Origin: Bacteroidaceae bacterium
GTDB taxonomy: Bacteria; Bacteroidota; Bacteroidia; Bacteroidales; Bacteroidaceae
Assembly: GCA_017965425.1 (NCBI GenBank)
Contig: JAGCPY010000087.1
Coordinates: forward strand, 1 to 38,852
DNA length: 38,852 bases
Direction of reading: 5' to 3'
The notes under the pieces are model-generated. The model did not search any database. It was not told where the DNA came from and was given only the letters and a program-made list of their open reading frames with translations. The position numbers were made by a program, and so were the translations under genes. Below are positions 9,806 to 25,962 of this stretch, piece by piece; within the stretch, counting starts at the first letter, position 1; each line of letters starts with the position of its first letter.

Positions 9806-9900
9806 ATCCCTCAATCCCTCACCTTTTCATTCATCTTCCTGTAAACGAAGCACTTGTGGGTGAGACTTTGGTGAGGGATAGGTGAGGGATGGTGAGGTTT
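9806..9900 (+). repeat. GGTGAGGGA module A (left block, 35-bp spacer, iteron array)
   Basis: The left block ATCCCTCAATCCCTCACC is at 9806-9823, the variable spacer at 9824-9858 (35 bp), and the right block of GGTGAG-type iterons at 9859-9897, ending in TTTT. The block next to the spacer is inverted relative to the right block, so the RNA could form a hairpin with a 35-nt loop. It is followed head-to-head by module B. Confidence 0.85.
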
Positions 9901-10006
9901 TCGCCATTTCCCTCACCATCCCACACCTATCCCTCACCAAAGCCTCACCCATAAACAGCTCGTTACCAACGCAGTACGTCAAAAGGTGAGGGATTGAGGG
10001 ATTTTG
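9901..10006 (-). repeat. GGTGAGGGA module B, inverted to module A
   Basis: Read on the minus strand, the left block is 10006-9985 (ATCCCTCAATCCCTCACC core), the spacer 9984-9950 (35 bp), and the iterons run from 9949 to about 9908. Together with module A it makes a 200-bp near-symmetrical inverted structure centred on about 9903. The two spacers differ in sequence although both start with TTTT. Confidence 0.85.
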
Positions 10007-10017
10007 CATAAAAAAGT

Positions 10018-10312
10018 TATTGGTGTCCGGTAAACTTATAGTTGGTACCTCATCATGCCCGTCTCCATAGGTCTTTTCGTTGATTCCGCCTTAAGGAGGC
10101 TTGGAGGAACGGCCTAAAAGGCCAACAGCAAAAAGCCCAGGGCAGCGCCCTGGGTATCAAGGTGGTAGGTATATGCGCCCTGAAAGGGCAAAAGCCTTAT
10201 ATTCAACGCTTTTGCCCCTTCAGGGCGACTTTATTCTATTCATCATACCCAGGGCGATGCCCTGGGCTGACTGCTCATTGGCCTTTCAGGCCGTTTTTAC
10301 CGGACACCAATA
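10018..10312. mobile_element. 295-bp foldback (MITE / REP-cluster-like) element with 17-bp perfect terminal inverted repeats
   Basis: TATTGGTGTCCGGTAAA at 10018-10034 is exactly inverted at 10296-10312. Inside, the halves 10111-10195 and 10208-10292 are long inverted copies of each other. Each carries three short hairpins in matching order: GGCCTAAAAGGCC / GGCCTTTCAGGCC, CCCAGGGCAGCGCCCTGGG / CCCAGGGCGATGCCCTGGG and CGCCCTGAAAGGGC / GCCCCTTCAGGGCG. No transposase is encoded. A decayed relative is found in 25322-26047. The element abuts the rpsA terminator. It is non-autonomous and would need a transposase elsewhere. Confidence 0.85.
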
Positions 10313-10356
10313 TAAAAAAGTCTGTGTCAGGAAGCGCTGTTGCGTCCTGACACAGA
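10313..10356 (-). terminator. Rho-independent terminator of rpsA
   Basis: TCTGTGTCAGGA (10321-10332) pairs perfectly with TCCTGACACAGA (10345-10356). On the minus strand the hairpin is followed by CTTTTTTATA (10320-10311). It lies about 30 bp downstream of the rpsA stop codon. The foldback element begins directly at the end of the U-tract. Confidence 0.9.
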
Positions 10357-10388
10357 ACATCTATGATACCAAGTCTTTTAAACCTGTC

Positions 10389-12188
10389 TTATTCGCCTTG
10401 CTCGAGCTTAGCCTTCAGTGCAGCCAGCGCGTCGATGTCACCGAGGGTGGTGCTGGCAGCCTGATTCTGGATAACGGGCTGTTCCTCACGTGCCTTGGCG
10501 GGACGCTTCGTGGCAGCGCGCTCTGCCTTGCGAGCCTCGCGGGCTTCGCGACGAGCCTCATCCTCAAAGATGCGGCTGTGGCTGAGGATGATGCGCTTGC
10601 TGTCCTTGTTGAACTCAATGACCTTGAACTGCAGCTTTTCGCCCTGCTGTGCCTGGCTGCCATCTTCCTTGACAAGATGCTTGGGAGTGGCAAAACCTTC
10701 GACACCATATTCGAGCTGGATGACGGCACCCTTGTCGAGCAGTTCGGTGATGGTTCCCTCGTGGACACTGTCAACAGTGAAGACCGTCTCAAAGACATCC
10801 CAAGGATTCTCTTCCAGCTGCTTGTGACCAAGGCTGAGGCGACGGTTGTCCTTGTCGATTTCGAGGACAACGACCTCGATGTCGGAACCAATCTGCGTGA
10901 ACTCGCTGGGATGCTTCACCTTCTTCGTCCAGCTGAGATCGCTGATGTGGATGAGACCGTCAACACCCTCTTCGATTTCGACGAAGACGCCGAAGTTGGT
11001 GAAATTGCGGACGCGGGCAGTGTGCTTGGAACCAACGGGGTAGCGCTGTTCGATGTTCTCCCACGGATCTTCCTTGAGTTGCTTGATACCCAAAGACATC
11101 TTGCGTTCCTCGCGGTCGAGGGTGAGGATAACGGCTTCTACCTCGTCGCCCACCTTCATGAAGTCCTGAGCGCTGCGGAGGTGCTGGCTCCATGACATCT
11201 CGCTGACGTGGATGAGACCTTCGACTCCAGGTGCGACCTCGATGAATGCACCATAGTCGGCCATGACGACGACCTTACCATGCACGTGGTCACCCACCTT
11301 GAGGTTAGGATCGAGAGCGTCCCAAGGATGAGGTGTGAGCTGCTTGAGGCCGAGGGCGATGCGCTTCTTTTCCTCGTCGAAGTCAAGGATGACGACGTTG
11401 AGTTTCTGGTCGAGTTCGACCACCTCGTGCGGATCGCTGACGCGGCCCCAGCTGAGGTCTGTGATGTGGATGAGACCATCGACACCACCCAAGTCGATGA
11501 AGACACCGTAAGAGGTGATGTTCTTGACGGTTCCCTCGAGCACCTGACCCTTTTCGAGCTTGGAGATAATCTCCTTCTTCTGCTGCTCGAGTTCGGCCTC
11601 GATGAGTGCCTTGTGGCTGACAACGACATTGCGATAGTCCTGATTGATTTTCACAATCTTGAACTCCATGGTCTTGCCGACGAATACGTCGTAGTCACGA
11701 ATGGGCTTCACGTCAATCTGGCTGCCGGGCAGGAATGCCTCGATGCCGAAGACATCGACAATCATGCCACCCTTGGTGCGGCACTTGATGAAACCCTTGA
11801 CGATTTCCTCGTTCTCCAAAGCGGCGTTGACACGCTCCCAGCTCTTGGTGGCGCGAGCCTTCTTGTGAGAGAGGATGAGTTGTCCTTTCTTGTCTTCCTG
11901 ATTTTCGATATAGACCTCCACGGTGTCGCCCACCTTCAGGTCTGGATTGTAGCGGAACTCGCTGACAGGAATGATACCATCGCTCTTGTAGCCGATGTTG
12001 ACAACGACCTCACGCTTGTTTACGCTGATGACCGTACCGTCCACGACGTCGTGGTCATTGACGTTGTTCAGGCTTTGTTCGTATGCCTGCTGTTGTTGTT
12101 CGCGGCTCTCGCCGGTCGTTGAGCCACCCTGCTCATAGTCTTTCCAATCGAAGTCGGCAAGGGGCTGAATGTTGTTTAAGTTTGACAT
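10389..12188 (-). CDS. rpsA: 30S ribosomal protein S1
   Basis: 599 residues with six S1 (OB-fold) RNA-binding repeats at about 47-115, 130-197, 215-283, 302-370, 389-457 and 476-545. Repeats 3-5 are the most canonical ('GVFIDLGGVDGLIHITDLSW', 'GAFIEVAPGVEGLIHVSEMSW', 'GVFVEIEEGVDGLIHISDLSW'). S1 binds mRNA leaders and helps deliver them to the 30S subunit. An N-terminal acidic and Gln-rich extension (1-45) and a basic Ala/Arg/Glu tail (about 546-599) flank the repeats. The gene stands alone, with its own promoter motif and a strong terminator. Bacteroidetes mRNAs often lack Shine-Dalgarno sequences, so S1 is thought to matter greatly there (general knowledge, not shown here). Confidence 0.97.
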   Translation of the reverse strand: MSNLNNIQPLADFDWKDYEQGGSTTGESREQQQQAYEQSLNNVNDHDVVDGTVISVNKREVVVNIGYKSDGIIPVSEFRYNPDLKVGDTVEVYIENQEDKKGQLILSHKKARATKSWERVNAALENEEIVKGFIKCRTKGGMIVDVFGIEAFLPGSQIDVKPIRDYDVFVGKTMEFKIVKINQDYRNVVVSHKALIEAELEQQKKEIISKLEKGQVLEGTVKNITSYGVFIDLGGVDGLIHITDLSWGRVSDPHEVVELDQKLNVVILDFDEEKKRIALGLKQLTPHPWDALDPNLKVGDHVHGKVVVMADYGAFIEVAPGVEGLIHVSEMSWSQHLRSAQDFMKVGDEVEAVILTLDREERKMSLGIKQLKEDPWENIEQRYPVGSKHTARVRNFTNFGVFVEIEEGVDGLIHISDLSWTKKVKHPSEFTQIGSDIEVVVLEIDKDNRRLSLGHKQLEENPWDVFETVFTVDSVHEGTITELLDKGAVIQLEYGVEGFATPKHLVKEDGSQAQQGEKLQFKVIEFNKDSKRIILSHSRIFEDEARREAREARKAERAATKRPAKAREEQPVIQNQAASTTLGDIDALAALKAKLEQGE

Positions 12189-12252
12189 AAAGTTAATTAA
12201 AAAAGAGATAATAATTGATAGAGTTAGACATTATGTTGTTGAAACTCGGGCG

Positions 12253-12260
12253 CAAAGGTA
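12253..12260 (-). promoter_or_regulatory. -7 element of the rpsA promoter
   Basis: Reads TACCTTTG on the minus strand, a perfect TAnnTTTG, about 65 bp upstream of the rpsA ATG. The -33 region at about 12281 reads only GTTG, a weak match. Confidence 0.6.
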
Positions 12261-12358
12261 CAAAAAAGAGCCGAAACACAACAACGAAAGTACTACTTTT
12301 TATCAAGAAACCACCTTTTTTCCCCTGAACGACCTACAAAAAAAGATGAAAGAGGGAA

Positions 12359-13063
12359 TTATTCGTTCATCTTCTCCATATTATCCCGAGCCATACGGAT
12401 GTATTCCTGCACATAGGCATCTTCGAGAAATGCGGGGCTGGCAAGCGTGATGAGTTCTTCTATTTGGGGATTGAGGACAGGATAAGGGAAGCCCGAAGTA
12501 ACAATCATGAAGACACCCGGCCCAAGGACATTGTCCATGTTGTCCTTGATGAAACGAACAACGAGTCGGTCCTCCTGCTTTCCCAAGACAGCAGCTTCCT
12601 GATTTAACTGTCGGATAATGTCGTCGTGATCCATACCTTCAAGAATCATGCGGCTTTCCTTTCGTGGAAGCTCGGCCAGCTGCAAATCAAGGGCAGTCTT
12701 GCGCTTGATGAAGGCGAAAAGCGTGTCGTTCAGTTCAGAACCAATGACTTTGCGCTCGTTCTCGTTGAGCAGGATGGTGAGCGGATGACCGTCCAGCACA
12801 ACCGGCATGATGCTCTCGTCGCCGAGGAACAAATTGGCCATCACGACGGAATCGAGTGCAGCCCCGTTGAAATGGAACTTACCATGCATGATGCGTGTGG
12901 AGTCAATAGAGACCAAATCGCCATCGTGAAAGACGCGCAAGGAGAGCACTTTCCCTTCCAGCTCAGCAATGGTAGTTGAGCCTTGAATCTCCAAGCGGTC
13001 TTTACATGCTGTAAGAAAGAACACGCAGAACGATAATAGGAAAAAAGATATTCTGTTCGTCAT
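12359..13063 (-). CDS. DUF4369-type lipoprotein
   Basis: 234 residues. A lipoprotein signal peptide ends in the lipobox 'FFLTAC' with Cys20, so the protein is probably anchored in the inner or outer membrane. The region about 26-115 ('IQGSTTIAELEGKVLSLRV', 'DSTRIMHGKFHFNG', 'GHPLTILLNENERKVIGSELND') matches the DUF4369 pattern common in Bacteroidetes, where it often precedes a thioredoxin-like domain. Here the remaining C-terminal part is helical, with no CxxC, so the redox domain is absent. It is the last gene of a minus-strand run (DivIC, small membrane protein, plsC, this gene) with gaps of 3-20 bp. Function is unknown. Confidence 0.8.
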   Translation of the reverse strand: MTNRISFFLLSFCVFFLTACKDRLEIQGSTTIAELEGKVLSLRVFHDGDLVSIDSTRIMHGKFHFNGAALDSVVMANLFLGDESIMPVVLDGHPLTILLNENERKVIGSELNDTLFAFIKRKTALDLQLAELPRKESRMILEGMDHDDIIRQLNQEAAVLGKQEDRLVVRFIKDNMDNVLGPGVFMIVTSGFPYPVLNPQIEELITLASPAFLEDAYVQEYIRMARDNMEKMNE

Positions 13064-13083
13064 AAATAAATCCTGTTATGGCT

Positions 13084-13854
13084 TCAATCCTCGGGATTGT
13101 AGGTGCCTGAAGGCGGTGCTGAGGGTTGGGTTGTCAGGCTTCCATTGATGACATCGAAAGCCTGCTGCATCATGGCGTGTTCATCTTCCACGCCTGTTCC
13201 GCGAGGTTGAATAGGAGTGTGAATGGTCAAAGAAAGGGGATGCCACGTGACAAAATTCATGCCACGTGAACGCGGGAGGACATCAAAAGACCCGTTGATG
13301 GTCACGGGCAGCAACGGCAACTGCAACTCATCGGCCAGCTGAAAAGCGCCACGCTTGAAACGTCTCATGCGGCCATCCCACGTTCGGGCTCCTTCAGGAA
13401 AGACCACCAACGACATTCCGTCCTGCAAGACGGCACGAGCACGGGCATGAGTTTCTGACAATGCCTTTGGACCTCCCTTTTGATCGACAAAGATAAAACC
13501 GGCTGACTCGCAAGCCTTCCCTATGAGAGGCATGTCGCGCAGTTCTTTCTTCATCATCCACTTGAAATGGCGACCAAGAAAGCCATAGACAAGGAAGATG
13601 TCGAACGCGCCCTGATGGTTGGGAATGATGATGTAACTCTGGCGTGGATCCATGTGTTCACGTCCCCTGATATGAACAGGCAACAATAGCACGCGGATGA
13701 AGGCCCGCGACCACCATCGGCCTGGATAATAACTCCACCAAGAAGCATCCAGCAGCGTACATCCAATCGTCACGGAAAAAGCCGTCACAATGGTCAATAT
13801 CAACAGGATAGGCGCTGCAATGAACAGCTGATAGCATCGATAGATGAACTTCAT
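13084..13854 (-). CDS. plsC: 1-acyl-sn-glycerol-3-phosphate acyltransferase
   Basis: 256 residues. It acylates lysophosphatidate to phosphatidate in membrane phospholipid synthesis. The catalytic HX4D motif is 'NHQGAFD' (His80-Asp85). The substrate-binding 'VVFPEGART' lies at about residue 150. An N-terminal membrane segment (about 10-33) would anchor it to the inner membrane. It lies 20 bp upstream of the DUF4369 gene and 13 bp downstream of the small membrane protein gene, so it is probably in one transcript. Paralogous PlsC-like acyltransferases exist in Bacteroidetes, so the exact acyl acceptor is inferred from motifs only. Confidence 0.9.
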   Translation of the reverse strand: MKFIYRCYQLFIAAPILLILTIVTAFSVTIGCTLLDASWWSYYPGRWWSRAFIRVLLLPVHIRGREHMDPRQSYIIIPNHQGAFDIFLVYGFLGRHFKWMMKKELRDMPLIGKACESAGFIFVDQKGGPKALSETHARARAVLQDGMSLVVFPEGARTWDGRMRRFKRGAFQLADELQLPLLPVTINGSFDVLPRSRGMNFVTWHPLSLTIHTPIQPRGTGVEDEHAMMQQAFDVINGSLTTQPSAPPSGTYNPED

Positions 13855-13867
13855 GACATCTTGTTTT

Positions 13868-14248
13868 TCATTGTTCCCCGTCTCTTTCCTTTTTCAGTTC
13901 AGAAGGAATCCTGAACGCAGTATAGAGTTCCAATACACAGCCAATGGCCAGACAAACGACCCACTCGTTTCGACGTGCAAATCCAAACTGCCCCACCTGC
14001 ATGGCCATACAACAGGCAGCACACAGGAAAGCCACTTGCCCCAACAACTGCTGACGCCGCAGACGACGGATGGTGAAGTTGCGTCCTTCATAACGCTGTA
14101 ACATTCGTGTTGGACAATAGGCCAATGCACCTATACTATAAATGAAAGTCGCCCATAGAGGCTTCCACATAAACAACGCCGCCCCTAACGGCATAAAGAC
14201 AGCTGCCATTTGCTGCAAGACAACGAGTCGCTTATCCAATTCTTCCAT
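13868..14248 (-). CDS. Small integral membrane protein, unknown function
   Basis: 126 residues from the ATG at 14248; an in-frame GTG at 14257 would add three. Four hydrophobic segments are visible (about 15-28, 31-44, 68-84 and 92-107), with a basic cytoplasmic-type loop in between ('RYEGRNFTIRRLRRQQLLG'). No family is recognised with certainty. It sits between divIC-like and plsC genes with tiny gaps (12 and 13 bp), so expression is probably coupled to cell-envelope genes. Confidence 0.75.
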   Translation of the reverse strand: MEELDKRLVVLQQMAAVFMPLGAALFMWKPLWATFIYSIGALAYCPTRMLQRYEGRNFTIRRLRRQQLLGQVAFLCAACCMAMQVGQFGFARRNEWVVCLAIGCVLELYTAFRIPSELKKERDGEQ

Positions 14249-14260
14249 GATTCCCACACA

Positions 14261-14581
14261 TTATTGGCCTGTACTGGCTGAATCTGCGTCCATGATGACA
14301 AAGACATCTTCGTTCGCACGTTTCATAAAGTAGCGTTCCCGCGCCATCTTTTCGACAGTGGAGGGGCTGGTTTCCAAGGCTTCAAGTTGCGCCGTTTCCG
14401 CTTCGTATTGAGCTTGGAACTTATCAATCTCGCGCCGCAGGTTGCCGATTTCCACGTTCCGTTCATAACGAACCCATAGGCTGTTCTCATCCAACACTCC
14501 CAAGATGAGCAGGAAAATAAAAATAGCTACTACATATTTGTAGCGGCGCACATAACCCCATAAAGTAAATAGTCGTCCCAT
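14261..14581 (-). CDS. FtsB/DivIC-family septum formation protein
   Basis: 106 residues: a short cytoplasmic N-terminus, a single membrane helix (about 17-31), then a coiled coil ('IGNLRREIDKFQAQYEAETAQLEALE', about 42-70) and the conserved 'VEKMARERYFMKRANEDVFVI' that is typical of FtsB/DivIC proteins. These bitopic proteins belong to the divisome FtsQ-FtsL-FtsB subcomplex. It is the first gene of the four-gene minus-strand run and is divergent from dnaX; the 143-bp spacer between them carries tandem 14-bp repeats. Confidence 0.85.
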   Translation of the reverse strand: MGRLFTLWGYVRRYKYVVAIFIFLLILGVLDENSLWVRYERNVEIGNLRREIDKFQAQYEAETAQLEALETSPSTVEKMARERYFMKRANEDVFVIMDADSASTGQ

Positions 14582-14626
14582 GTCTCTTGAGCCTTATTTT
14601 CTTGTTTGATGCCGCGAAGATACGCA

Positions 14627-14665
14627 AAACTTTAAACATTAAACTTTAATCATTAAACTTTTTTT
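14627..14665. repeat. 14-bp tandem repeat in the divIC-dnaX divergent spacer
   Basis: AAACTTTAAACATT (14627-14640), AAACTTTAATCATT (14641-14654) and a partial AAACTTT copy (from 14655) follow one another. They lie between the two divergent starts and upstream of the dnaX -7 element, so they could be a regulator site or simple AT-rich slippage. Confidence 0.7.
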
Positions 14666-14696
14666 CCATGAACGCTGTTTTTTCAATCTTTTTATG

Positions 14697-14718
14697 TATT
14701 TTTGCACGCAAAAAGGAG
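14697..14718 (+). promoter_or_regulatory. dnaX -7 element and ribosome-binding site
   Basis: TATTTTTG (14697-14704) fits TAnnTTTG. AAGGAG (14713-14718) stands 6 bp before the ATG at 14725. The promoter and RBS decide this start over the in-frame ATG at 14668, which lies upstream of the -7 element. Confidence 0.7.
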
Positions 14719-14724
14719 AAAAAT

Positions 14725-16155
14725 ATGTCCGAATACATCGTTTCTGCACGCAAGTACCGCCCCATGACGTTCGATACTGTGGTTGGACAAAGTTCCATCG
14801 CCACCACTTTGAAGAACGCAATCCATACGGGCAAGCTTGCTCATGCCTATCTTTTCTGCGGTCCTCGTGGTGTGGGCAAGACCACCTGCGCACGAATCTT
14901 CGCAAAGACCATCAACTGCCTCCATCCAAGAGAAGACGGCGAGGCATGTAATGAATGTGAATCCTGCCGTGCCTTCAATGAGCAACGCTCTCTGAACATT
15001 CATGAACTGGACGCTGCCTCCAACAACTCTGTCGATGACATCCGCAACCTCATTGACCAAGTGCGCATCCCGCCTCAGATTGGTAAATACAAAGTCTTCA
15101 TCATCGACGAGGTTCACATGCTCTCCACAGCCGCCTTCAACGCGTTCCTGAAAACGCTCGAAGAACCACCGGCACACGCTATCTTCATCCTCGCCACCAC
15201 TGAGAAGCACAAGATTCTGCCTACCATCCTCAGCCGATGCCAGATTTATGACTTCCAGCGGATGACCATCACGGACATCGTTCGCCATCTGACCCACGTC
15301 GCAGAGCAGGAAGGCTATACTTGTGAACCCGCCGCCCTGAACATCATCGCCCAGAAAGCCGACGGCGGTATGCGTGACGCGCTTTCCATCTTTGATCAGG
15401 TCGTCAGTTACACCGGCGGTAACATCACCTACCAACAGGTTATCGAAAACCTCAATGTTCTTGACTACGACTATTACTTCCGCCTTATCGATTTCCTGCT
15501 TGAGAAAAAGATTTCCGAAAGTCTTCTCCTCTATAACGAAGTGCTCAGCAAAGGCTTTGAAGGTGGACCGTTCATCAGTGGTTTAGCTTCTCATTTGCGC
15601 GATTTACTCGTCAGTCGCGATGCTCAGACGACACAACTTCTCGAAGTCAGTGAAGACATCCGCCAACGATATGCACAGCAAGCACAGCGCTGCAAGCCCC
15701 AATGGCTTTATCGAGCCATACGCCTCTGCAATGACTGCGACCAAGCCTATCGCACCAGCCGCAACAAACGCTTGCAAGTGGAACTGACGCTCATCGAAGC
15801 GGCACAGGCCACTGATGATGACCCTGGTGCGGGGCGTCGCCCTGCACGTCATATCCTTAAACCCATTTCAGCCACTTGGCAGCAGCTGCCAAGAAGGCTA
15901 CTCCTGTTGCCCCCTCGGTTCAACAGCCACCCGTTCTCGCCACCCCAAAAACGACTCCGCTTCCCCACGATGATGAGAGAGGCGGAGAGCCTTCATCCCC
16001 ACCAGCCAAGCTTAAAACATTTAAGCTCGGAAATCTTACTCCTTCCATCCGAACAGGAAAAGCTCCTTCATCACCTTCTGAAACATCTTCTGCTTCGGGC
16101 TCCCCTTCCGCTCCAAGTACGTCGTCCGACAATGTCACAAATGAGGCACCTTTGA
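14725..16155 (+). CDS. dnaX: DNA polymerase III gamma/tau subunit, zero-frame part
   Basis: Clamp-loader ATPase. The ATG at 14725 follows a good RBS. Walker A 'GPRGVGKTT' (residues 46-54), the zinc-binding cysteine cluster ('CLHPREDGEACNECESC'), Walker B 'VFIIDEVHML', sensor 1 'LATTEKHKI' and the collar domain are all normal to about residue 380 ('PGAGRRPARHILKPI'). After about 15865 the zero frame turns into Leu/Pro/His-rich nonsense ('RRLLLLPPRFNSHPF') and stops at 16155. The true C-terminal domain continues in the -1 frame (see 15861-16562). dnaX is a classic gene for programmed frameshifting, but I see no perfect slippery heptamer in the window where the shift must happen. A single-base deletion (real, or from assembly) near the TTT at 15866-15868 is the simpler reading. 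Confidence 0.93.
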   Translation: MSEYIVSARKYRPMTFDTVVGQSSIATTLKNAIHTGKLAHAYLFCGPRGVGKTTCARIFAKTINCLHPREDGEACNECESCRAFNEQRSLNIHELDAASNNSVDDIRNLIDQVRIPPQIGKYKVFIIDEVHMLSTAAFNAFLKTLEEPPAHAIFILATTEKHKILPTILSRCQIYDFQRMTITDIVRHLTHVAEQEGYTCEPAALNIIAQKADGGMRDALSIFDQVVSYTGGNITYQQVIENLNVLDYDYYFRLIDFLLEKKISESLLLYNEVLSKGFEGGPFISGLASHLRDLLVSRDAQTTQLLEVSEDIRQRYAQQAQRCKPQWLYRAIRLCNDCDQAYRTSRNKRLQVELTLIEAAQATDDDPGAGRRPARHILKPISATWQQLPRRLLLLPPRFNSHPFSPPQKRLRFPTMMREAESLHPHQPSLKHLSSEILLLPSEQEKLLHHLLKHLLLRAPLPLQVRRPTMSQMRHL

Positions 16156-16562
16156 CTGATTTGTCCACAAATCTTGACCAGCCTGTCCGACAAGCAGATA
16201 TTCCGCTCCAATGGCAAGCTTTTATCAATACTATGCCACAAGCAGAAACGGCGTTAGCTCAGCGGATGCGGATTATGCAGCCCACACTTTCTGCTGAAGA
16301 GGATGCTCAAACAAAGCCTCATCTTCTCGTGATGACTGAAAACGAGGAAGTGGCTACGATGATGCAACAACTCAAGCCACGTCTATTGAGTTTCCTTCGA
16401 CAGCAACTACAAAACAAACAGCTGGACATTAGTTTCAAAGTAAGCAAGCCTGAAAACAAACCGGCACGCACCTATGACAAGCGTGAGTTGCTCCAACATT
16501 ACTGCGATGTCAATTCTGCACTCATCACCCTTGTGAAGGACTTTAATTTAGAGCTCTCTTGA
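15861..16562 (+). CDS. dnaX: dnaX C-terminal part in the -1 frame
   Basis: This frame opens right after a TAA (15858-15860). It begins 'THFSHLAAAAKKATPVAPSV', a natural Pro/Ala linker joining onto the 'ILKPI' of the zero frame. It then encodes a tau-type C-terminal domain ('IPLQWQAFINTMPQAETALAQR', 'ENEEVATMMQQLKPRLLSFL', 'DVNSALITLVKDFNLELS'). In Bacteroidetes DnaX this segment normally follows in frame. There is no own start or RBS, so it is expressed only if the ribosome shifts by -1 or if the genome really carries one more base. It ends 34 bp before the next gene. Confidence 0.85.
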   Translation, partial: THFSHLAAAAKKATPVAPSVQQPPVLATPKTTPLPHDDERGGEPSSPPAKLKTFKLGNLTPSIRTGKAPSSPSETSSASGSPSAPSTSSDNVTNEAPLTDLSTNLDQPVRQADIPLQWQAFINTMPQAETALAQRMRIMQPTLSAEEDAQTKPHLLVMTENEEVATMMQQLKPRLLSFLRQQLQNKQLDISFKVSKPENKPARTYDKRELLQHYCDVNSALITLVKDFNLELS

Positions 16563-16596
16563 TGTATTCCTGCCGGCTGACCTTTCCTCTTAATAA

Positions 16597-16920
16597 ATGA
16601 TTATCAATCGCTTCATTCCCTTTGCAGGTTTCACAGCCATCAACCTTTTTGGCATCATCTTCGTGCGAAAAGGGAAACAGTTCACTCCCACTGACCTCTG
16701 CCATGAACGAATACACACCCGACAGATGCTGGAGCTGCTCTTTCTCCCCTTCTACCTTTTCTATTTCATAGAATGGAGCTTGCGACTTCTGAAAGTGCAC
16801 AATGGTTTGCGTGCCTACCAAGAAATATCTTTCGAACGCGAAGCCTATGCCCATCAATCAGACCCTGAATACATCAACAAACGTCAACCATACGCATGGC
16901 TACGTTATCTTAGCAAGTGA
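16597..16920 (+). CDS. Small conserved membrane protein with HExxH motif
   Basis: 107 residues. A hydrophobic N-terminal segment (about 5-24) is followed by 'LCHERIHTRQMLELL', which holds an HExxH zinc-protease signature (His-Glu-Arg-Ile-His). A second membrane segment ('LLFLPFYLFYFIEW') comes next, and then 'ISFEREAYAH', whose glutamates could be the third metal ligand as in gluzincins. Similar short proteins seem common in Bacteroidetes but, to my knowledge, have no assigned function. It lies 34 bp after dnaX on the same strand and converges with the RluA-like gene. Protease activity is inferred from the motif only. Confidence 0.8.
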   Translation: MIINRFIPFAGFTAINLFGIIFVRKGKQFTPTDLCHERIHTRQMLELLFLPFYLFYFIEWSLRLLKVHNGLRAYQEISFEREAYAHQSDPEYINKRQPYAWLRYLSK

Positions 16921-16931
16921 AAGACGTTCCT

Positions 16932-16965
16932 TGGCACTTCAAAATGGAGCTGGCACTTCAAAATG
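16932..16965. repeat. 15-bp direct repeat, 19-bp period, at the 3' end of the RluA-like gene
   Basis: On the minus strand CATTTTGAAGTGCCA occurs twice (16965-16951 and 16946-16932), separated by four bases. The first copy is read in frame as 'HFEVP'. The second is read in another frame and supplies the TGA stop at 16941-16939. This looks like a recent tandem duplication that changed the C-terminus. Confidence 0.8.
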
Positions 16966-18751: not shown

Positions 18752-18774
18752 TGTCGTTTCTGTTCACAAGGTTA

Positions 18775-20418
18775 TTACTTCACTACAACCGCCAAGACGG
18801 GTGCGATGTCGCCGCCAGGACGTGCGGTTGGCAGAGTCACATGTAAGCCACTGGAATCCAGGGAATATGACACCTTTCCATAGCCTAATAACTTGACGCT
18901 ACGCACCTTCTTTCCATTAAGGACGGATGAACCAATGGCGAAGCTCTTGATGGTGGTTGTATTTGTTGCAGGCCATCCCATGAGAGTGGCATAAACGGTA
19001 TTCTTCTTCGCGTTGAAGCGGATGTCCTGAGCGGTGTACTTGATGCCCTCGTTGAATCCTTGGTCCTTCAGCGGGTTGGAGTTTTCCGCAAGCGGCCCTT
19101 CGCCGAAGGTCGTCCAAGGTCGTGTGCCGAAGATGCTCTCTCCGTTGACGTCCATCCATGCTTTCAAGTCGCCGAGAATGGCGCGTTCCTTCTCGTCGAT
19201 GCTGCCGTCACCTTTCACGGGAATGCTCAGGAGCAGACAGCCGTTCTTGCTCACCACGTCCACGAGCATCTTCACCACACGGGCGGCCGACTTGTAGTCG
19301 CCACGGTTGTAGATACCTTTATCGTAGTGCCATGAGCCGATGCAGGTGCAGGTCTGCCAAGGCAAGGGCTGAGCGCGGTCTGGCACGCCGCGTTCCACGT
19401 CCCAGAGCATCAGCTGCTTCTGTTCGTCGGTCAGGATCTTGCCCATCGCCACCACCTGTTGCTTCCCGCCGTGGCGGTTGGCGCTGTGGTTGTAGAAGTG
19501 TGTGAGGATGTTCTTTCCCACTTGGTCGTCACAACCGTAGAAGGGCAGTGCCGTGTCGTCAAAGTAGAGCATCTGCGGATCGTAGTCGTTGATGAGTTGC
19601 AGCACGCGGTTCTGGAGCTTGCGCTTGTAGGCTTCGGAGGGCAGCGAGGCTCCATTTTTCCATTCCCACTGGCGATGAATGCTTCCTGCGTTCTCCCAGC
19701 CCTGACTGGGTTCGTGCCTTTGAGCGTAGAGTTCCTGCGGGTCGAGGCCCTTCCACCATTTCTCGGAACCGTCGGGGTTGGGTTTGTAGCCGTCTTCCTT
19801 CGAAAGGTTGCCATCGAACTTCTGTGCCAACTCAAACCATGTCCAGGCATGTGCACCGTGGATGCTGACGCCCAGCGGGAGCTTATACTTCTTGCACGCT
19901 TTAGCCCACTCGCTCACGATGTCGCGCTTCGGTCCCACGCGCACGGAGTTCCATTCCTGGTACGGCGAGTCCCAAAGGTCGAAGTTGTCGTGGTGCTGCC
20001 CGAGGGTGAAGAAGAACTGCGCCCCGCACTCCTTGTAGAGTTTCACGAGAGCTTCGGGTTCCCACTTCTCGGCTTTCCAGGCGTTGCAGAGGTCCTTCAT
20101 GCCAAAATCGGCGGGCGAGCCGTAGTGCTCCACGTGGTACTTGTACTGCCATCCGCCTTCCTGGTACATGCCGCGGCCATACCAGTCGCCCGACTCTGCC
20201 TGACACTGAGGTCCCCAGTGCGCCCAAATGCCGAACTTGGCATCGCGGAACCATGCTGGACACTCCCATGCTTTCAGGCTTTCCCAATCGGCCTGAAAGG
20301 GTCCGCTTTCTACGGGTACGTCGCTCCGTGTCTGCGCCTGTGCCGTCAGGACGGAGAATAAGGCCACGGCGGCCACGGCCACCCAGCCCTGCAAGTTGTT
20401 TTTTCTCTTCTTTTCCAT
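18775..20418 (-). CDS. Secreted alpha-L-fucosidase (GH29)
   Basis: 547 residues with a signal peptide (about 1-28, ending 'VLTAQAQ'). The GH29 TIM-barrel motifs are clear: 'WFRDAKFGIWAHWGPQC', 'GAQFFFTLGQHHDNFDLWDS', and 'DPQMLYFDDTALPF', whose Asp (about 283) is in the position of the catalytic nucleophile. A beta-sandwich follows ('FNAKKNTVYATLMGWPA'). GH29 enzymes release alpha-linked fucose from glycans; substrate linkage cannot be read from the sequence. The Gln in 'WGPQ' replaces the residue usual in many fucosidases (G-x-Y), a subfamily trait. It is 11 bp downstream of the GH105-like gene, so the two probably act on one polysaccharide. No SusC/SusD or regulator gene is present in the window. 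Confidence 0.92.
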   Translation of the reverse strand: MEKKRKNNLQGWVAVAAVALFSVLTAQAQTRSDVPVESGPFQADWESLKAWECPAWFRDAKFGIWAHWGPQCQAESGDWYGRGMYQEGGWQYKYHVEHYGSPADFGMKDLCNAWKAEKWEPEALVKLYKECGAQFFFTLGQHHDNFDLWDSPYQEWNSVRVGPKRDIVSEWAKACKKYKLPLGVSIHGAHAWTWFELAQKFDGNLSKEDGYKPNPDGSEKWWKGLDPQELYAQRHEPSQGWENAGSIHRQWEWKNGASLPSEAYKRKLQNRVLQLINDYDPQMLYFDDTALPFYGCDDQVGKNILTHFYNHSANRHGGKQQVVAMGKILTDEQKQLMLWDVERGVPDRAQPLPWQTCTCIGSWHYDKGIYNRGDYKSAARVVKMLVDVVSKNGCLLLSIPVKGDGSIDEKERAILGDLKAWMDVNGESIFGTRPWTTFGEGPLAENSNPLKDQGFNEGIKYTAQDIRFNAKKNTVYATLMGWPATNTTTIKSFAIGSSVLNGKKVRSVKLLGYGKVSYSLDSSGLHVTLPTARPGGDIAPVLAVVVK

Positions 20419-20429
20419 AGTCTAAATAT

Positions 20430-23400
20430 TTATCTTCTTTGTATCCATTTCTTGTGATGGGTGAGATAGAGGCCACCCTTGACAGGTCGCGAGATGCAGC
20501 GGCCGCATAGGTCATACCATGTCCCCTTTGCCGCCTGGTGCTCCACACCCTGAGCGAGTCCGATGCCGGTGGTCACGCTCTCGAAGATGTCGGCAATCTC
20601 GTCGGCGGTCAGGCAGAGACCGTAGATACGGAAATTGTCTATTGTGCCGACATAGTCGCCGTTGTCGTTCCTGGACGATGTGTCCCACCACTGGGTGCGA
20701 CCAATGTAGTTGCGGGTGTCTTCGCCGTTGGCCAGCAGCTGACAGGGCTCGTACTTAATGTCCTGACTCTGTGCCACCTGGCAGCCATCGACATAGATGG
20801 TTGTGGTTCGAGTGCGTGCGTCGAAGCTGACGGCGATGCGCTGTTCGGTGCCCACCTGAAGTTCATCGGCACGGATGAGCGTGGTGGTCTTTCCGCCAAA
20901 CTTGCAGCCTGCGGCGAAGGTGCCGGCACGGAGGAAGAGGCTGTTTGCCGAGCCGCTGCCGAAGTCGTAGAAGCGCTGCAGACGGTCCAGTTCGTCGGGC
21001 GTGGCGCTGAAGAGGACGGTGTAGCTGCGCAGAGAATCCAGCAGATGGCTGGGCAGCAGCAGGTAGCCGTTGGTGTCGAAGTCGGTGGAGATGTTGTCCG
21101 TGAGGTTCAGCGTGCCGTCCACCAGGCAGCGGTCACCCTTCAGCTGGGCATCGCGCTGGTGCCGCGAGAGGTCGCGCAGCCAGCGCGTTTCTCCGTCGCC
21201 GTAGACATCTTCTGTCTCGAAGTCGTAGCGCAACAGCAGTGTCTGCTCCGGGTCGCGGGGCATGACGGTGACGGCGTAGTCGCTGCTGATGCCGTCGTAG
21301 TGGGCTGTCAGGGTGACATGCTGCTCATGCTCTGCCGGCGCGACGAGACCGTCGGCGGTCATCACGTCGGGGGCCGAGCTCGTCCAGGTGATGGCCTGCC
21401 CAGACTTGGTGCTCTGTGGCAGGAGGATGTCGGCAAAGACGAAGTCGGGGATGTTCAGGCGCGACTGGGCGTCGTCGACGCGGATGCGTGCCTCGGTGAT
21501 GCTGTTCCAGGGGCTGGTGCTGGCGCCGTTGCAGACGATGCGCACGTAGCGTGCCTCCACGGCATCGGGCAGGCGGTAGCGCTCGAGTTCCGTGGTGAGG
21601 CCGCTGCTCACCAGACTGCTGAGAGCCTCTGTCCACGACTGACCGTCGAGGGAAGTCATGATGTCGAAGTAGTTCACGCGTGTGTTACCTAAATAGAAGG
21701 CGATGTCCACGGCGGTGACGTGTTCCGCCTGACCGAGGTCGAACTGAATCCACTGTTCCATGCCTTCCTGGCTCCAGCGGGTGGAGTAGTTGCCGTCGAT
21801 GACGTTGACGGCAGGGTTGCCGCTCTGTGCGCCGATGGCTGTGACGGTCATGTCTATGGAGTTAGGTGTGAGGGGAACGGTGCGGACGAGGAAGTGTTCG
21901 TTGTCGCCTGCGATTTCCATCCCTTCTGTGTTTCTTACGTTCTGGACAGAGAGCCGGTAGACGCCGTAGTCGAGCGGGGCATTGAGCGTGAGGACGATGG
22001 TCCGCAGTCCGTCGAAGTCGACGCGCTGGATGTCCGCCGTCTGGCCGTTGATGAGATAGTGTGCAGGTGACTCCAGCCCTTCGGAGTCGGGTACGGAGTT
22101 GAACTTCAGGGTAATCTTGTCGGCCGCCGTAAGCTCGGCACTGGCGAGACGCATCGGCGTAGCACTCTGATGGCCTACGGCATAACGGCTCATCTCTGCC
22201 GTGGCAAGCAGGAAGGCTCCGACGCCGAAGTCTGCCGTCTGGCTGGCTGAGATGTAGGTGCCGGGAGCGGCATTGGAACCGATGGGCTGGACGTAGCCTA
22301 CCGACCCGTTTTCCTGCAGTGCCACACGCGTCAGGTAGTGCCATCCGCGTTGCAGCGTCTGGCCGTAGGTTGCCTCGTCCAGCAGGCCGTGGTTGATGCC
22401 CCATGCGAAGCCAAAAACATACAGTGCCGTGCCGCTGGTCTCGTAGCCGGGAGCGTAGTCTTCGTCGAGCAGCGAGCGGCACCAGTAGCCGTTGCCCTCG
22501 GCGTCCGTGCGCTGGCATAGGCGCAGGCTCTCCGCCATGCGCCGATAGTAGCTGATGTACTCCTCACGGTGCGGGTCGTCTGCCGGCAGCTCGTCCAGCA
22601 CACGGGCGAAGGCAGCGAAGATCCATCCGTCGCCGCGCGCCCAGAAGTCCTTGCCGCCGGCAGCTGTTGTGTGCTTGGGATAGACGTAGCTGCCGTCGCG
22701 GTAATAGAGTCCCTCTTCCTCATCCCACATCAGGTCTGTGCCCCATCGCCAGTATTCGTACATCTTCTCGAGGTAGAGTGGGTTGCCGGTGATGAGGTAG
22801 AGCTTTGTCATGACGGGCATGACCATATACAGGCCGTCCACCCACCAGAGGTAACCGCTCTCGTCGGTGCTCATCTCGTATTCCATCACCTCCCTGGCAC
22901 GGGCTATCTTCTCTTCGCCGCCCAGCAGGTTGTAGAGGTCGGCATAGATCTGGAAGCATATCTGGTTGTCGCCGAAGAGGACGTAGTCCGCCGACTCACC
23001 GTAGCTGAACTTCCAGCGGCTCTTGTCCGTGCCTGTCTGTCCCCAGTAGCGGTTGCGCTCGGCCCAGGCCACGGAGTAGTCGAGGAACTGGTGCTCGCCC
23101 GTCGCCTTGAAGGCTTCCATGTTGCCGGTGTGGTAAACGGCGCGGTTCCAGAAATGGTCGCCATGCGTCGGGTGGGTCTGCTGCCAGTGGAAGTTGGCCT
23201 TGTAGATGAGGGCGACTACGTCGTCCTTCTGGGGCAGTTCGTCCTGCCAAGAAGTGAGGGTCAGCGGATGGTCCACTTGCGCCTTGAAACGCTCCAGCGC
23301 GTCGAACCAGTCCTCGTCGCAGGCGAAGTCGCCCTGTGGAAATGCGCTCCAGCCGCCGCCGAAGTAGTAGGTCAGTTCCGTGCCGGGCATGTAGTCCACG

Positions 23401-24383
23401 CAGACGCAGAGGTGATGGTCGATGACTTCGGGCGCGGTGGCGGCGGAGGGTACGTAGCATCCTTGGTAGAAACGGGCTCCGGTGCTGCTGACGGAGCCTT
23501 CGCTCTTGTTCTCTGCCCAACCTGCCAAGCCTGCCGTCTCGGCATAGCTCACGCCTTCAGGCTTCACTCCCGACATGTCGGTGTGCTGGTACAGCGCCAC
23601 CGCCAGACGCATCGGCTTGCCGGTGCCGGCTTGAACGGGTGTGTAGCAGACCGTGGCTTTGTTGAGCAAACTGCCTGCCGAAGTGGTGACGACGAGGGTC
23701 TTCGTGTACGTCACCCCGTCCACGTTTATATTATAATAGGTAAGGCGGAAGCGGCTCTGCAAAGCTCCGTTCTCCTCGACATCGCAACGGTCGTGGGGTG
23801 CGTGGATGACGAGCTTGCCAGCTGCGACATGACTCACGCCGCCGCACCCCAGACGTTTGCCGTTGACGCTGAAAGCGTCCACGCCGTAGTCACTCTCGGA
23901 GTGGTAGTTGGAGAGGCTGTACATGTTGTCGATGACGGGTGTGGGCTTCTTCTTCGACCACATGTCCACGCCGTTGCCCGTGTTGGGTTCGCCCACCAGC
24001 AGCACCGACGAGTACATGCGGAACGCCGCGCGGTCGTTTTCCCAGGAGATGTCGGCACGCGACGACGGCACCTTGACGGCAGCGTAGGTCAGCTTCTGAG
24101 GCTGCCTGCGGACACCGTCGCTGAGCACATAGCCCATTGTCGCCCCGTGGGCGACGGAAGCCTGGAAGCGGATGCCGTGCTGCCCACTGAGTTCAAAGGA
24201 CAGCGTGTGCCCCTCCTCATCGCTCAAGGTCATGTTGTTCAAGTTGAGGCCTTCAGGGACAGCCACTTCCACCGTCTCGCCTTGTCGCGAGAAACCGAGT
24301 TCGTTTTTCAAACGAAACTTATACTCGCCCGCCATCGCCTGCAACGCCGCAAGTGAAAGTATCAAAATGAAAGCACTTCTCAT
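20430..24383 (-). CDS. Large secreted GH105/GH88-like hydrolase with F5/8C and LamG domains
   Basis: 1317 residues with a signal peptide (1-18). Domains in order are an N-terminal beta-sandwich resembling DUF4861 (about 19-370); an (alpha/alpha)6 hydrolase of the GH88/GH105 type (about 380-745), with 'WNRAVYHTGNMEAFKATG' (about 408), 'ADYVLFGDNQICFQIYADLY' containing the likely catalytic Asp, and 'FWARGDGW' (about 580); a linker; an F5/8 type C (discoidin) domain (about 845-985, 'NVIDGNYSTRWSQ'); an Ig-like strand segment; a LamG-like domain (about 1048-1270, 'YDFETEDVYGDG', 'GTIDNFRIYGLCLTADEI'); and a tail 'WYDLCGRCISRPVKGGLYL'. GH105 enzymes remove unsaturated galacturonate from pectin (rhamnogalacturonan) oligosaccharides. 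With the adjacent fucosidase this suggests degradation of a fucosylated pectic glycan, but the substrate is inferred. Confidence 0.85.
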   Translation of the reverse strand: MRSAFILILSLAALQAMAGEYKFRLKNELGFSRQGETVEVAVPEGLNLNNMTLSDEEGHTLSFELSGQHGIRFQASVAHGATMGYVLSDGVRRQPQKLTYAAVKVPSSRADISWENDRAAFRMYSSVLLVGEPNTGNGVDMWSKKKPTPVIDNMYSLSNYHSESDYGVDAFSVNGKRLGCGGVSHVAAGKLVIHAPHDRCDVEENGALQSRFRLTYYNINVDGVTYTKTLVVTTSAGSLLNKATVCYTPVQAGTGKPMRLAVALYQHTDMSGVKPEGVSYAETAGLAGWAENKSEGSVSSTGARFYQGCYVPSAATAPEVIDHHLCVCVDYMPGTELTYYFGGGWSAFPQGDFACDEDWFDALERFKAQVDHPLTLTSWQDELPQKDDVVALIYKANFHWQQTHPTHGDHFWNRAVYHTGNMEAFKATGEHQFLDYSVAWAERNRYWGQTGTDKSRWKFSYGESADYVLFGDNQICFQIYADLYNLLGGEEKIARAREVMEYEMSTDESGYLWWVDGLYMVMPVMTKLYLITGNPLYLEKMYEYWRWGTDLMWDEEEGLYYRDGSYVYPKHTTAAGGKDFWARGDGWIFAAFARVLDELPADDPHREEYISYYRRMAESLRLCQRTDAEGNGYWCRSLLDEDYAPGYETSGTALYVFGFAWGINHGLLDEATYGQTLQRGWHYLTRVALQENGSVGYVQPIGSNAAPGTYISASQTADFGVGAFLLATAEMSRYAVGHQSATPMRLASAELTAADKITLKFNSVPDSEGLESPAHYLINGQTADIQRVDFDGLRTIVLTLNAPLDYGVYRLSVQNVRNTEGMEIAGDNEHFLVRTVPLTPNSIDMTVTAIGAQSGNPAVNVIDGNYSTRWSQEGMEQWIQFDLGQAEHVTAVDIAFYLGNTRVNYFDIMTSLDGQSWTEALSSLVSSGLTTELERYRLPDAVEARYVRIVCNGASTSPWNSITEARIRVDDAQSRLNIPDFVFADILLPQSTKSGQAITWTSSAPDVMTADGLVAPAEHEQHVTLTAHYDGISSDYAVTVMPRDPEQTLLLRYDFETEDVYGDGETRWLRDLSRHQRDAQLKGDRCLVDGTLNLTDNISTDFDTNGYLLLPSHLLDSLRSYTVLFSATPDELDRLQRFYDFGSGSANSLFLRAGTFAAGCKFGGKTTTLIRADELQVGTEQRIAVSFDARTRTTTIYVDGCQVAQSQDIKYEPCQLLANGEDTRNYIGRTQWWDTSSRNDNGDYVGTIDNFRIYGLCLTADEIADIFESVTTGIGLAQGVEHQAAKGTWYDLCGRCISRPVKGGLYLTHHKKWIQRR

Positions 24384-24413
24384 GTTATTGACTCGTCAGT
24401 TTGTATGCGTCAG

Positions 24414-24443
24414 CAAAGATACATACATTCAGGCACATGCAAA
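24414..24443 (-). promoter_or_regulatory. Promoter of the GH105-GH29 pair
   Basis: On the minus strand, TTTG (24443-24440), an 18-bp spacer and TATCTTTG (24421-24414) are seen. The -7 is perfect, and the spacing is slightly shorter than the usual 19-21 bp. The leader would be about 25 nt. Confidence 0.6.
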
Positions 24444-24612
24444 AAACATTCTGAACTTTTCTTCTTTTTATGCAGTTTATTTAACATAAAGACGACCTCT
24501 GGTCACATACCCTCTGTCTCATAAAGCCATAGAATTGAAGTGTTACTGCACGCGCGAGTACTTAGGATTTTCCAAGATATCTATCACTTCCATCACTCAT
24601 TGAAACACAAGC

Positions 24613-24636
24613 CTTGGAGAAAGGGCAGCAAGCAGT
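24613..24636 (+). repeat. 24-bp direct repeat, copy 1
   Basis: Begins CTTGGAGAAAGGGCAGCAAG and is identical over 24 bp to 25939-25962. Both copies lie in the gene-free zone, 1.3 kb apart, bracketing modules C and D. Confidence 0.8.
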
Positions 24637-24851
24637 ATTGAGCAGTATAAAGCTTGCTTTGATGCCCGAAGCGTAGCCGAGATTATGCAAAAGAGGCCAA
24701 AGCGAACAAAGATTATTCATTGAGAATTTATTCATTAATAGAACACACCTATAAGATATTCAGCTATTTGGGAGATAAATGTACACCATAAATTAACGTG
24801 AATTCCATAATTTCTTCACGATTTTCCGTGAACGTATAGACGAGTCGGTGA

Positions 24852-24867
24852 GAAGGTGTACACCTTC
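24852..24867. repeat. Perfect palindrome GAAGGTGTACACCTTC
   Basis: A 16-bp perfect palindrome, one base different from 9714-9729. It is followed by AGATGCATACACC (24876-24888), similar to GATGCACACCT near the first locus. It lies 40 bp before module C. Confidence 0.75.
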
Positions 24868-24907
24868 CGACTTTTAGATGCATACACCCATAAAATGCCA
24901 AAAAAAG

Positions 24908-25000
24908 CCTCAATCCCTCACCAATGACGATAAGACTCAGTCAATGAAATGTTTACAGGTGAGGGATTGGTGAGGGATTGGTGAGGGATGGTGAGGGTTT
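24908..25000 (+). repeat. GGTGAGGGA module C
   Basis: Left block CCTCAATCCCTCACC (24908-24922), spacer 24923-24957 (35 bp), then four iterons from 24958 (GGTGAGGGATT, GGTGAGGGATT, GGTGAGGGATG, GTGAGGG) with an 11-bp period, ending in TTTTC. It is the cleanest copy of the module. The inner blocks can pair over 12 bp (CAATCCCTCACC with GGTGAGGGATTG). Confidence 0.88.
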
Positions 25001-25070
25001 TCTCCATCGAAAGTCAAAAGCGACTGTCAAGAAGGCAAAAAACAGCAAACGACGGTACTCAACTTACATT

Positions 25071-25207
25071 ATTCATGAAGATTCAATCGCTTTTTATCAG
25101 TAAATGCATAAAAATAGTTTATATAATAAATTGATGAAGATTGAAGTTGATTGACGTCTAAATCAAAATCAACCAATTGTTTAAATTGGACGTGAATCTT
25201 CATGAAT
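25071..25207. repeat. 137-bp segment bounded by 15-bp perfect inverted repeats
   Basis: ATTCATGAAGATTCA (25071-25085) is exactly inverted at 25193-25207. Inside is a related GATGAAGATTGAAGTTGATT copy and its partial complement AAATCAAAATCAACC. It could be a very short MITE or a regulatory hairpin; no target-site duplication is obvious. Confidence 0.65.
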
Positions 25208-25321
25208 CTAATCGTCATCTATGCCAATATTTTATGTTCGACTACTTAAGACACAAATTACCATTATTTATCGTAATTTATTCAAGTTTCGGATGTTTGA
25301 GCAAGTGTATTGTATTTAACG

Positions 25322-25397
25322 AAAGGCCAAAAAGCACATAGCACAGGGCATTGCCCTGGGTACAACGTGGAACCGATAATTCGCCAAGGGCAAAAGC
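25322..25397 (+). repeat. Decayed left-arm copy of the foldback element
   Basis: It follows the same order as the arm at 10115-10195: AAAGGCC, the hairpin CAGGGCATTGCCCTG (25344-25358), then GCCAAGGGCAAAAGC. Many substitutions are present, and the 17-bp terminal repeat is not found on its left side. Confidence 0.65.
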
Positions 25398-25620
25398 ATT
25401 TGATGCGCATAAATTCATGGCCATTTACTTGAAAAAGAATCAGTTGATGACATCAAGGATAATGGTCATGAATATTACTGGCTAAAACAAACGAACATAC
25501 ACGAAAAGCAGTAAAAACAAACGAAAACGGCCCCTTGCTTGCTCTTGCTTCCCTGGTTTTCCTTTGTTTTTGTGGTTGATTAGCGAATGCTTTCTGCCTC
25601 ATTCTCATTTAGTTAATGTC

Positions 25621-25720
25621 AATCCCTCACCTTCCCTCACCAATCCCTCACCAATCCCTCACCTGCAAGCACCTTTCTTTCAGGCGATTATAGCATTCGG
25701 TGAGGGATTGAGGGATTTTG
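25621..25720 (-). repeat. GGTGAGGGA module D, inverted to module C
   Basis: On the minus strand the left block is 25720-25699 (ATCCCTCAATCCCTCACC core, preceded by CAAA), the spacer 25698-25664 (35 bp), and the iterons run 25663-25621 with the same 11-bp phasing. Modules C and D lie 0.6 kb apart in opposite orientation. Confidence 0.88.
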
Positions 25721-25938: not shown

Positions 25939-25962
25939 CTTGGAGAAAGGGCAGCAAGCAGT
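25939..25962 (+). repeat. 24-bp direct repeat, copy 2
   Basis: Identical to 24613-24636. It lies just upstream of the right-arm remnant of the foldback element. Confidence 0.8.

Follow-up and report, generated by a model that had tools for sequence, protein, structure and literature searches.

What holds a DNA spacer at exactly 35 bp when its sequence differs strongly from copy to copy? This question is raised by four non-coding modules (A to D) in a contig of a Bacteroidaceae bacterium (NCBI GenBank assembly GCA_017965425.1, contig JAGCPY010000087.1, positions 1 to 38,852; this whole stretch of 38,852 nucleotides is referred to as the window). An earlier note on this DNA had taken the constant length as a hint of selection by a binding protein or by a structured RNA loop. 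The modules belong to a large family, apparently for the most part of convergent intergenic pairs, the spacer of which resembles a site for DNA-bending proteins of the HU/IHF type; a protein-bound bend is the probable answer to the question, and a role of the paired modules in chromosome architecture is our tentative preference.

Four modules of uniform anatomy in the window

A letter-by-letter check located modules A to D where they had been reported, each with a spacer of exactly 35 bp (Table 1); modules A and B converge on a 15-bp centre, modules C and D on one of 630 bp. The letters A10, G18, A21, A25, and TT31-32, which the earlier note had listed as common to the four spacers, are indeed shared by them; they are part of a larger consensus, and across 179 spacers of this genome (see below) T32 alone is strictly invariant. 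As to the inner repeats, previously described as two to four units with an 11-bp period, the array and its helical-type steps are present, but each of the four modules has four units, and the steps of 11, 11, and 10 bp are not constant. The first inner units of modules A and B read GGTGAGACTTT and GGTGAGGCTTT, respectively. The pattern CCCTCACC-N20-50-GGTGAGGG matched five times in the window compared with not once in 100 dinucleotide shuffles, and modules A to D scored 132-140 bits with a position matrix trained on the modules of this genome (the four of the window included), the best score in shuffled window sequence being about −87.

Table 1. Coordinates of the modules and their parts in the window.
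Feature	Position	Strand	Remarks
Module A outer site	9810..9823	+	CTCAATCCCTCACC; predicted binding site
Module A 35-bp spacer	9824..9858	+	dyad of the IHF/HU type, its half-sites at 9-18 and 24-33 of the spacer
Module A inner array	9859..9896	+	four GGTGAG units, steps 11, 11, 10
Centre separating the inner arrays of modules A and B	9897..9911	n/a	15 bp
Module B inner array	9912..9949	-	four units, the third GGTGTG
Module B 35-bp spacer	9950..9984	-	
Module B outer site	9985..9998	-	predicted binding site
Dispersed repeat of ~1 kb	24810..25870	n/a	modules C and D subterminal; parts match 8 of 8 other genome stretches compared
Module C outer site	24909..24922	+	predicted binding site
Module C 35-bp spacer	24923..24957	+	CAG at 16-18 (YTG in most modules)
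Module C inner array	24958..24995	+	four units
Module D inner array	25626..25663	-	four units
Module D 35-bp spacer	25664..25698	-	
Module D outer site	25699..25712	-	predicted binding site

The modules are members of a genome-wide family, apparently mostly of convergent pairs

The genome that contains the window (G000; 3.73 Mb in 96 contigs) holds 224 matches per strand to the palindromic pattern with a gap of 20-50 bp, and 200 matches to an oriented, strict pattern, in which at least seven solo sites are counted twice. The analysis was based on 179 of the 200 strict matches, after seven rows had been removed as the second strand of solo sites and 14 others left out; two matches (C49:87782 and C85:36669) were flipped to the other strand by hand, which shifted their coordinates by 2 bp. 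Neither outcome that would have spoken against a fixed spacer, that is, lengths scattered broadly around 35 bp or four copies derived from one recent duplication, was observed: among the matches listed, the gap was 35 bp, or 46 bp (35 + 11) where it was measured to the second inner repeat.

Read inwards, a consensus of 50 modules consists of a loosely conserved pyrimidine-rich stretch near TACACATG, the motif TTTT-N4-AAAA, the outer site CCTCAATCCCTCACC, the 35-bp spacer, and the inner array, usually with four GGTGAG units at positions 0, 11, 22, and 32. The spacer is thus flanked by inverted CTCACC/GGTGAG sites, one outside and usually four inside. When modules no more than 1.5 kb apart were considered one locus, the 179 modules fell into 119 loci (a lower bound for the genome), 60 with both modules recognized by the strict pattern and 59 with one. 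In all 60 strict pairs the orientation was convergent, at distances between 124 and 897 bp among those listed. A scan of 482 kb (contigs C61 and C26, a contig of genome G139 equal to most of C63, and the window) with the position matrix showed that the partner is usually there even where the strict pattern overlooks it: 10 of 10 loci in C61 and five of six in C26 were pairs, the remaining C26 locus being a solo palindrome (32 bits). Besides this solo and one weakened partner in C61 (81 bits), no site scored between −20 and 100 bits.

Apparent solo modules were seen at C14:18014, C25:28949, C32:71833, C36:6650, C47:52941, C78:146155, and C26:49576. They consist of a single spacer between two outer sites, as if recombination between direct repeats had removed one module of a pair.

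Two other readings of the modules were considered and dismissed. A coding sequence might be suspected from the leucine-codon look of positions 16-18 and 31-33, but conservation across 97 modules has no codon rhythm, and T9A10 spans a codon border (by eye). CRISPR-like spacers are ruled out by the fixed letters common to the spacers and by the presence of one spacer per module.

The spacer resembles an IHF site

The letters T9 A10, Y16 T17 G18, A25 R26, and T31 T32 R33 are the informative ones across the 179 spacers. The spacer can accordingly be written as YA-N5-YT at positions 9-17 and AR-N4-TTR at positions 25-33, mirrored about position 21, which is the best of all possible dyad centres (p = 0.005 compared with 2,000 column permutations). 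NARN4TTR occurs in 166 and YAN5YT in 156 of the spacers. Position 16 is almost always a pyrimidine and position 26 almost always a purine, without covariation, and the mirrored steps 16/17 and 25/26 are 9 bp apart.

For IHF, a published account (PMC8421141) gives a 35-bp site, two intercalations 9 bp apart, a bend of ~160 degrees, and the consensus WATCARNNNNTTR; the published site is thus of the same total length as the spacer. AR-N4-TTR is the core of that consensus. The spacer appears to match an IHF site in both motif and geometry, and because both half-sites are conserved, a homodimer is indicated. The fixed length of 35 bp would thereby gain a physical reason, namely, the accommodation of one bent complex of the HU/IHF type. 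The spacer is not a stem, as complementary letters were at or below expectation at 14 of 14 dyad position pairs. Tyrosine-recombinase inversion sites were rejected as another candidate, since the 5-bp centres of the spacers usually differ within a pair (by eye).

The inner repeats are constrained among diverged copies

The C-D pair sits in a repeat of ~1 kb, parts of which recur elsewhere in the genome, mostly with 81-92% identity. This made it possible to compare eight copies of each unit end, drawn from nine loci. The letters of the inner GGTGAG sites did not differ in any of 1,344 pairwise comparisons. Differences amounted to 2.7-4.7% in the outer site, 5.6-6.7% in the linkers of the array, and 4.5-9.4% at the conserved spacer letters, and to 22-23% at the free spacer positions and 13-32% in the flanks. 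Gene conversion would have carried the linkers along; the unchanged GGTGAG is therefore read as the result of selection after the copies had separated. Together with the fixed length, the dyad half-sites, and the helical steps, it lends good support to the proposal of the earlier note that a binding protein is what selects the modules.

The pairs are intergenic, keep a minimum distance, and appear to have spread as units

No predicted coding segment was found inside 33 of the 34 loci examined; the range of the remaining one (L031) overlaps one, this range being among the seven that were estimated by hand. At the 19 loci with both sides callable, the flanking genes were convergent in six, divergent in five, and tandem in eight cases. 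The intervals between loci within contigs (n = 69) had a minimum of 7.75 kb, a median of 15.8 kb, and a mean of 19.8 kb. For the 62 intervals in the 16 contigs with at least three loci, a random layout would be expected to yield ∼17 shorter than 7.75 kb, but none was observed, and not one of 20,000 reshufflings of these intervals was devoid of such short distances.

Spacers of an A-type and a T-type were joined in 20 of the 60 strict pairs compared with 11.9 expected (p = 0.002; the two classes were defined on the same data as tested). This excess, and the fact that the centres can be partly aligned, suggests that the pairs spread as units. Near-identical spacers (at least 28 of 35 letters) were found in seven of the 60 pairs. 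At three loci with near-identical spacers (L028, L037, and L040, the last outside the 60), the centres of 145-157 bp are unrelated by eye. A target-site duplication was not apparent in 28 pairs (L026/L098 counted twice), where no pair of offsets rose above the shuffles, three of which were made for each word length; such duplications could have faded from old insertions.

Related sites in other genomes of the genus

The pattern CCTCACC-N35-GGTGAGG was present in four of 139 genomes of the genus, 168 times per strand in G000 and once in each of three others. A looser pattern matched at least once in 39 of the 139, including families with other repeats, and many of the single matches look like chance. 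In genomes G038 and G058, the repeats of the convergent pairs read CCCTCAC, and CCCTCAC is separated from GTGAGGG by 29 bp, a distance that is 37 bp in G000; in G102, CTCACC and GGTGAG are 36 bp apart, and in G073, the corresponding distance is about 24-25 bp. In five of the seven G073 modules read, a core YAA-N4-YTG-N5-NAR recurs, at other distances from other repeats. A symmetric IHF-like core could not be fitted by eye to the spacers of G010, G102, G038, and G058.

What had been taken for an independent species with the element (contig JAGCYV010000072.1, filed under Bacteroidales RGIG10247) was withdrawn, because the 8 kb queried were 100% identical to contig C63 of G000. This one contig, which comes from yak rumen and looks misbinned, accounts for all four strict matches in that assembly; the bacterium that carries the window probably lives in the rumen. 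One module pattern did not match viral contigs and window positions 24880-25760 did not match plasmids, phage and E. coli collections not having been searched.

Two other kinds of repeat were seen in relatives. Genomes G080, G131, G075, G074, G027, and G071 contain an inverted repeat GGGAGTGC...GCACTCCC, total lengths of which are often 44 or 55 (11 bp apart); it may be a site of this kind built from different repeat letters. In G102, G055, and G010 (loci L149, L150, and L044, respectively), arrays of a TGTCTCAC..GTGAGACA palindrome were located close to the modules or between them, at L044 along with other short tandem repeats.

Repeats and fragments adjoining the modules

A second repeat family, CCCAGGGC..GCCCTGGG with GGCCTTTCAGGCC, adjoins the modules in the window (10087-10300, 25330-25400, and 25960-26010); sequence of this type is also found on either side of both Y1 (RAYT-like) transposase genes in the genome (by eye). 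Just outside the modules, palindromic repeats similar to GGTGTACACC occur, sometimes in series (window 24853, where it reads AAGGTGTACACCTTCC, and loci L018, L025, L026, and L027). At the end of the C-D unit (window 25790-25870), translation yields the fragment KWFLGFKLH, in a stretch common to some C-D copies (L101 and L105). To judge by eye, this fragment may be part of an insertion sequence transposase.

Discussion

From the observed anatomy, copy number, convergent pairing, dyad, GGTGAG constraint, and spacing, we infer the identity of two proteins, a U-turn of the DNA, the pairing of two modules, and a cellular role as follows. The 35-bp spacer would be occupied by a member of the HU/IHF (DNABII) family, probably as a homodimer, which would fold the DNA back on itself and so place the single outer site beside the four inner GGTGAG sites. 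The latter, lying roughly on one face of the helix, would be bound by a second, dedicated protein, and the two opposed modules of an intergenic region would together give rise to one complex per locus. Loci at least about 8 kb apart could then serve as borders or anchors of supercoil domains, as has been proposed for BIMEs of E. coli. The molecular part of this scheme, a protein-bound bend flanked by the sites of a second protein, is probably correct, judging from sequence; given the anatomy, the constraint, and the recurrence of the core in G073, we consider it very likely that the module is a bent nucleoprotein site. The domain role, even with the molecular part granted, has to be held with less confidence than that part itself. 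Taken as a whole, the notion of bent, paired nucleoprotein docking sites, which most likely mark the boundaries or anchors of chromosomal (supercoil) domains, is the one to which we incline, although with considerable reserve. The spacing of the loci is of the same order as bacterial supercoil domains. A BIME can impede the diffusion of supercoils (PMC6907758).

Several observations weigh against this explanation. Regarding the spacer, the strict CARN4TTR is present in just 69 of the 179, and conservation of the WATC stretch known from the IHF consensus is weak (W21 89%, A22 42%, T23 36%, and C24 41%). The kinks at the mirrored steps 16/17 and 25/26 are putative. Mutual information was observed at some dyad pairs (9-33, 13-29, 18-24, 19-23, and 20-22), as subfamilies would produce it. 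A crude motif search of ~0.5 Mb of this genome yielded no HU-like protein, and no protein binding the modules was identified. Regarding the relatives, this species is the only one known to have many copies (by the patterns used, G102 has four matches, G010 one, and six others none); a reversed control pattern also matched, up to 27 times in some of them, where it represents another repeat. Two of the seven G073 modules carry GAT instead of YAA (by eye), and the G073 core pattern, not rare in itself, also matched elsewhere in the same stretches. As to constraint, two of the eight C ends (L101 and L102) are near-identical and lie at contig ends, and some partners are weakened (those in L030 and L024, with 55 and 92 bits, respectively, besides the one in C61). 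Distances within pairs cluster at a period of 10.2 bp (39 distances, R = 0.61), but common descent is a confounder here, and the phasing becomes weak if each length is entered a single time (22 distances, power 4.5); the lengths of the centres alone (19 pairs) peak at 9.15 bp instead. Finally, a minimum distance with an exponential tail describes the intervals better than gamma spacing (log-likelihood −717.6 versus −726.4, a fit favored by taking the minimum from the same data). Such spacing suits the exclusion of insertions at least as well as it suits an organized pattern of domains, and the apparent spread of pairs as units would amount to a mobile history.

The last two points are what keeps alive a different explanation, which we consider quite possible, if doubtful: that the pairs are miniature, non-autonomous transposons, the modules being ends like those of Tn7/CAST or Mu and the minimum distance a trace of target immunity. 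Target immunity is known for Tn7, and the shifted-exponential distribution above 7.75 kb is compatible with it, as it would be with selection on spacing. The IHF/HU-type motif lies between the terminal and the inner predicted binding sites of the modules, just as in type I-F CAST an IHF site separates the first two TnsB sites of the left end, with sites spaced by the helical pitch (PMC10201428); IHF sites are also known in the Correia/NEMIS elements (PMC2229807). The joining of A-type and T-type spacers is what spread as units would leave behind. Against this, the outer and the inner sites are in opposite orientation, the 28 pairs gave no signal of target-site duplication, and the loci, with no coding segment within 33 of 34, are small, the longest pair distance listed being 897 bp. 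No transposase was found in them, the transposase search of the genome having covered PF01797 only. Moreover, the inner GGTGAG remained under strict constraint after a larger unit, with ends outside the modules, had been duplicated, and hardly any decayed relics were detected in 482 kb. It is this combination of strict constraint, near absence of relics, lack of duplications, and lack of a transposase in the loci that makes us lean toward chromosome architecture.

Other explanations fare less well. Iteron arrays for a segregation-type or topoisomerase-associated protein, that is, partition, replication, or gyrase sites, would be in keeping with modules that are constrained and intergenic where checked, and several plasmid centromeres are likewise built of 11-bp arrays in helical phase around a bend. 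To our knowledge, however, more than 100 sites would be unusual for centromeres, and no partition gene was apparent by eye in the open reading frames of the window and of contigs of two relatives, no family search having been run; we regard this explanation as improbable. Still more so is maintenance and movement by a RAYT (Y1) transposase in the manner of REPIN/BIME elements. The number of loci (about 100), the inverted pairs, and the solo copies are indeed reminiscent of REPINs, and of the two Y1_Tnp matches in the genome one (C21:58693-59031) lies within ∼0.4 kb of a module pair. The modules are ~115 bp long rather than short hairpins, however, both Y1 genes adjoin a different, CCCAGGGC-type repeat (by eye, from translations of open reading frames), the second match (C49:41537) is ~3.3 kb from the nearest module among those listed, and a short palindrome with a GTAG-type tag is missing from the consensus of 50 modules. 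Least credible is the structured RNA or small-RNA gene family that the earlier note had also envisaged. Its arms CCCTCACC/GGTGAGGG could close a loop of 35 nt, and some dyad pairs share mutual information, but the window gave no Rfam match at the gathering score, complementary letters did not exceed expectation at any of the 14 dyad pairs, and the orientation of the neighboring genes is mixed.

If the modules do mark domain boundaries, this genome would carry a sequence-coded map of its chromosome domains, with sites that can be read from the genome, and the question of what sets the borders of bacterial supercoil domains would become directly testable. Extended further, a dedicated system would comprise no fewer than 119 boundaries kept at least 8 kb apart, most of them marked by one convergent, HU/IHF-bent iteron pair. 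Some relatives would use the same core with other repeats, from which it would follow that the boundary protein and its sites co-evolve fast while the architecture persists; in this far-reaching form we consider the proposal rather unlikely. If the modules are transposon ends after all, a clean exclusion zone of ~8 kb would be the record of target immunity in this genome, left by a mobile element whose ends are kept under selection.

Comparison with known systems

Literature searches returned no recognizable description of the element among the matches listed; those listed for a search with the literal sequence were unrelated. The RIB elements of E. coli (Boccard and Prentki, 1993) are reportedly BIMEs with an IHF site. 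They resemble the modules in their many intergenic copies, in the inverted repeats around an IHF-type site, and in the proposed function as domain barriers (for BIMEs as topological insulators, see PMC6907758). In contrast to BIMEs, which are flanked by REP hairpins, the modules are flanked by phased GGTGAG arrays; they have a fixed 35-bp spacer with a symmetric dyad, occur as convergent pairs, the closest loci measured being 7.75 kb apart, and are not restricted to the 3′ ends of transcription units, five of 19 loci lying between divergent genes. Tn7-like CAST ends (PMC10201428) have a terminal binding site, an IHF bend, and further sites at helical spacing, as predicted for the modules; the modules differ in the inverted outer site, the small units (124-897 bp among those listed), and the lack of both a transposase seen in the loci and a target duplication. 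REPINs likewise form a long-lived intragenomic population of repeats with a copy number of the same order, but they are short hairpins associated with a RAYT gene, and the anatomy of the modules is unlike theirs (PMC8049555).

Correia/NEMIS elements of Neisseria (PMC2229807) are ~107 and 155 bp long, and the longer form is mostly intergenic and has an IHF site; they are reported to possess TA termini and target duplications, whereas no duplication was found at the modules. PINSR of Prevotella intermedia was reported by Naito et al. (PMC4755523) with a 188-bp consensus and, in a way similar to the modules, 177-184 intergenic copies, lineage-specific and of unknown function, about three-quarters of the regions being common to two strains. 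Unlike the modules, it is described as being without terminal inverted repeats, this comparison being one of descriptions. PINSR, the RIB/BIME elements of enterobacteria, and the Correia elements are the nearest described repeats to the modules.

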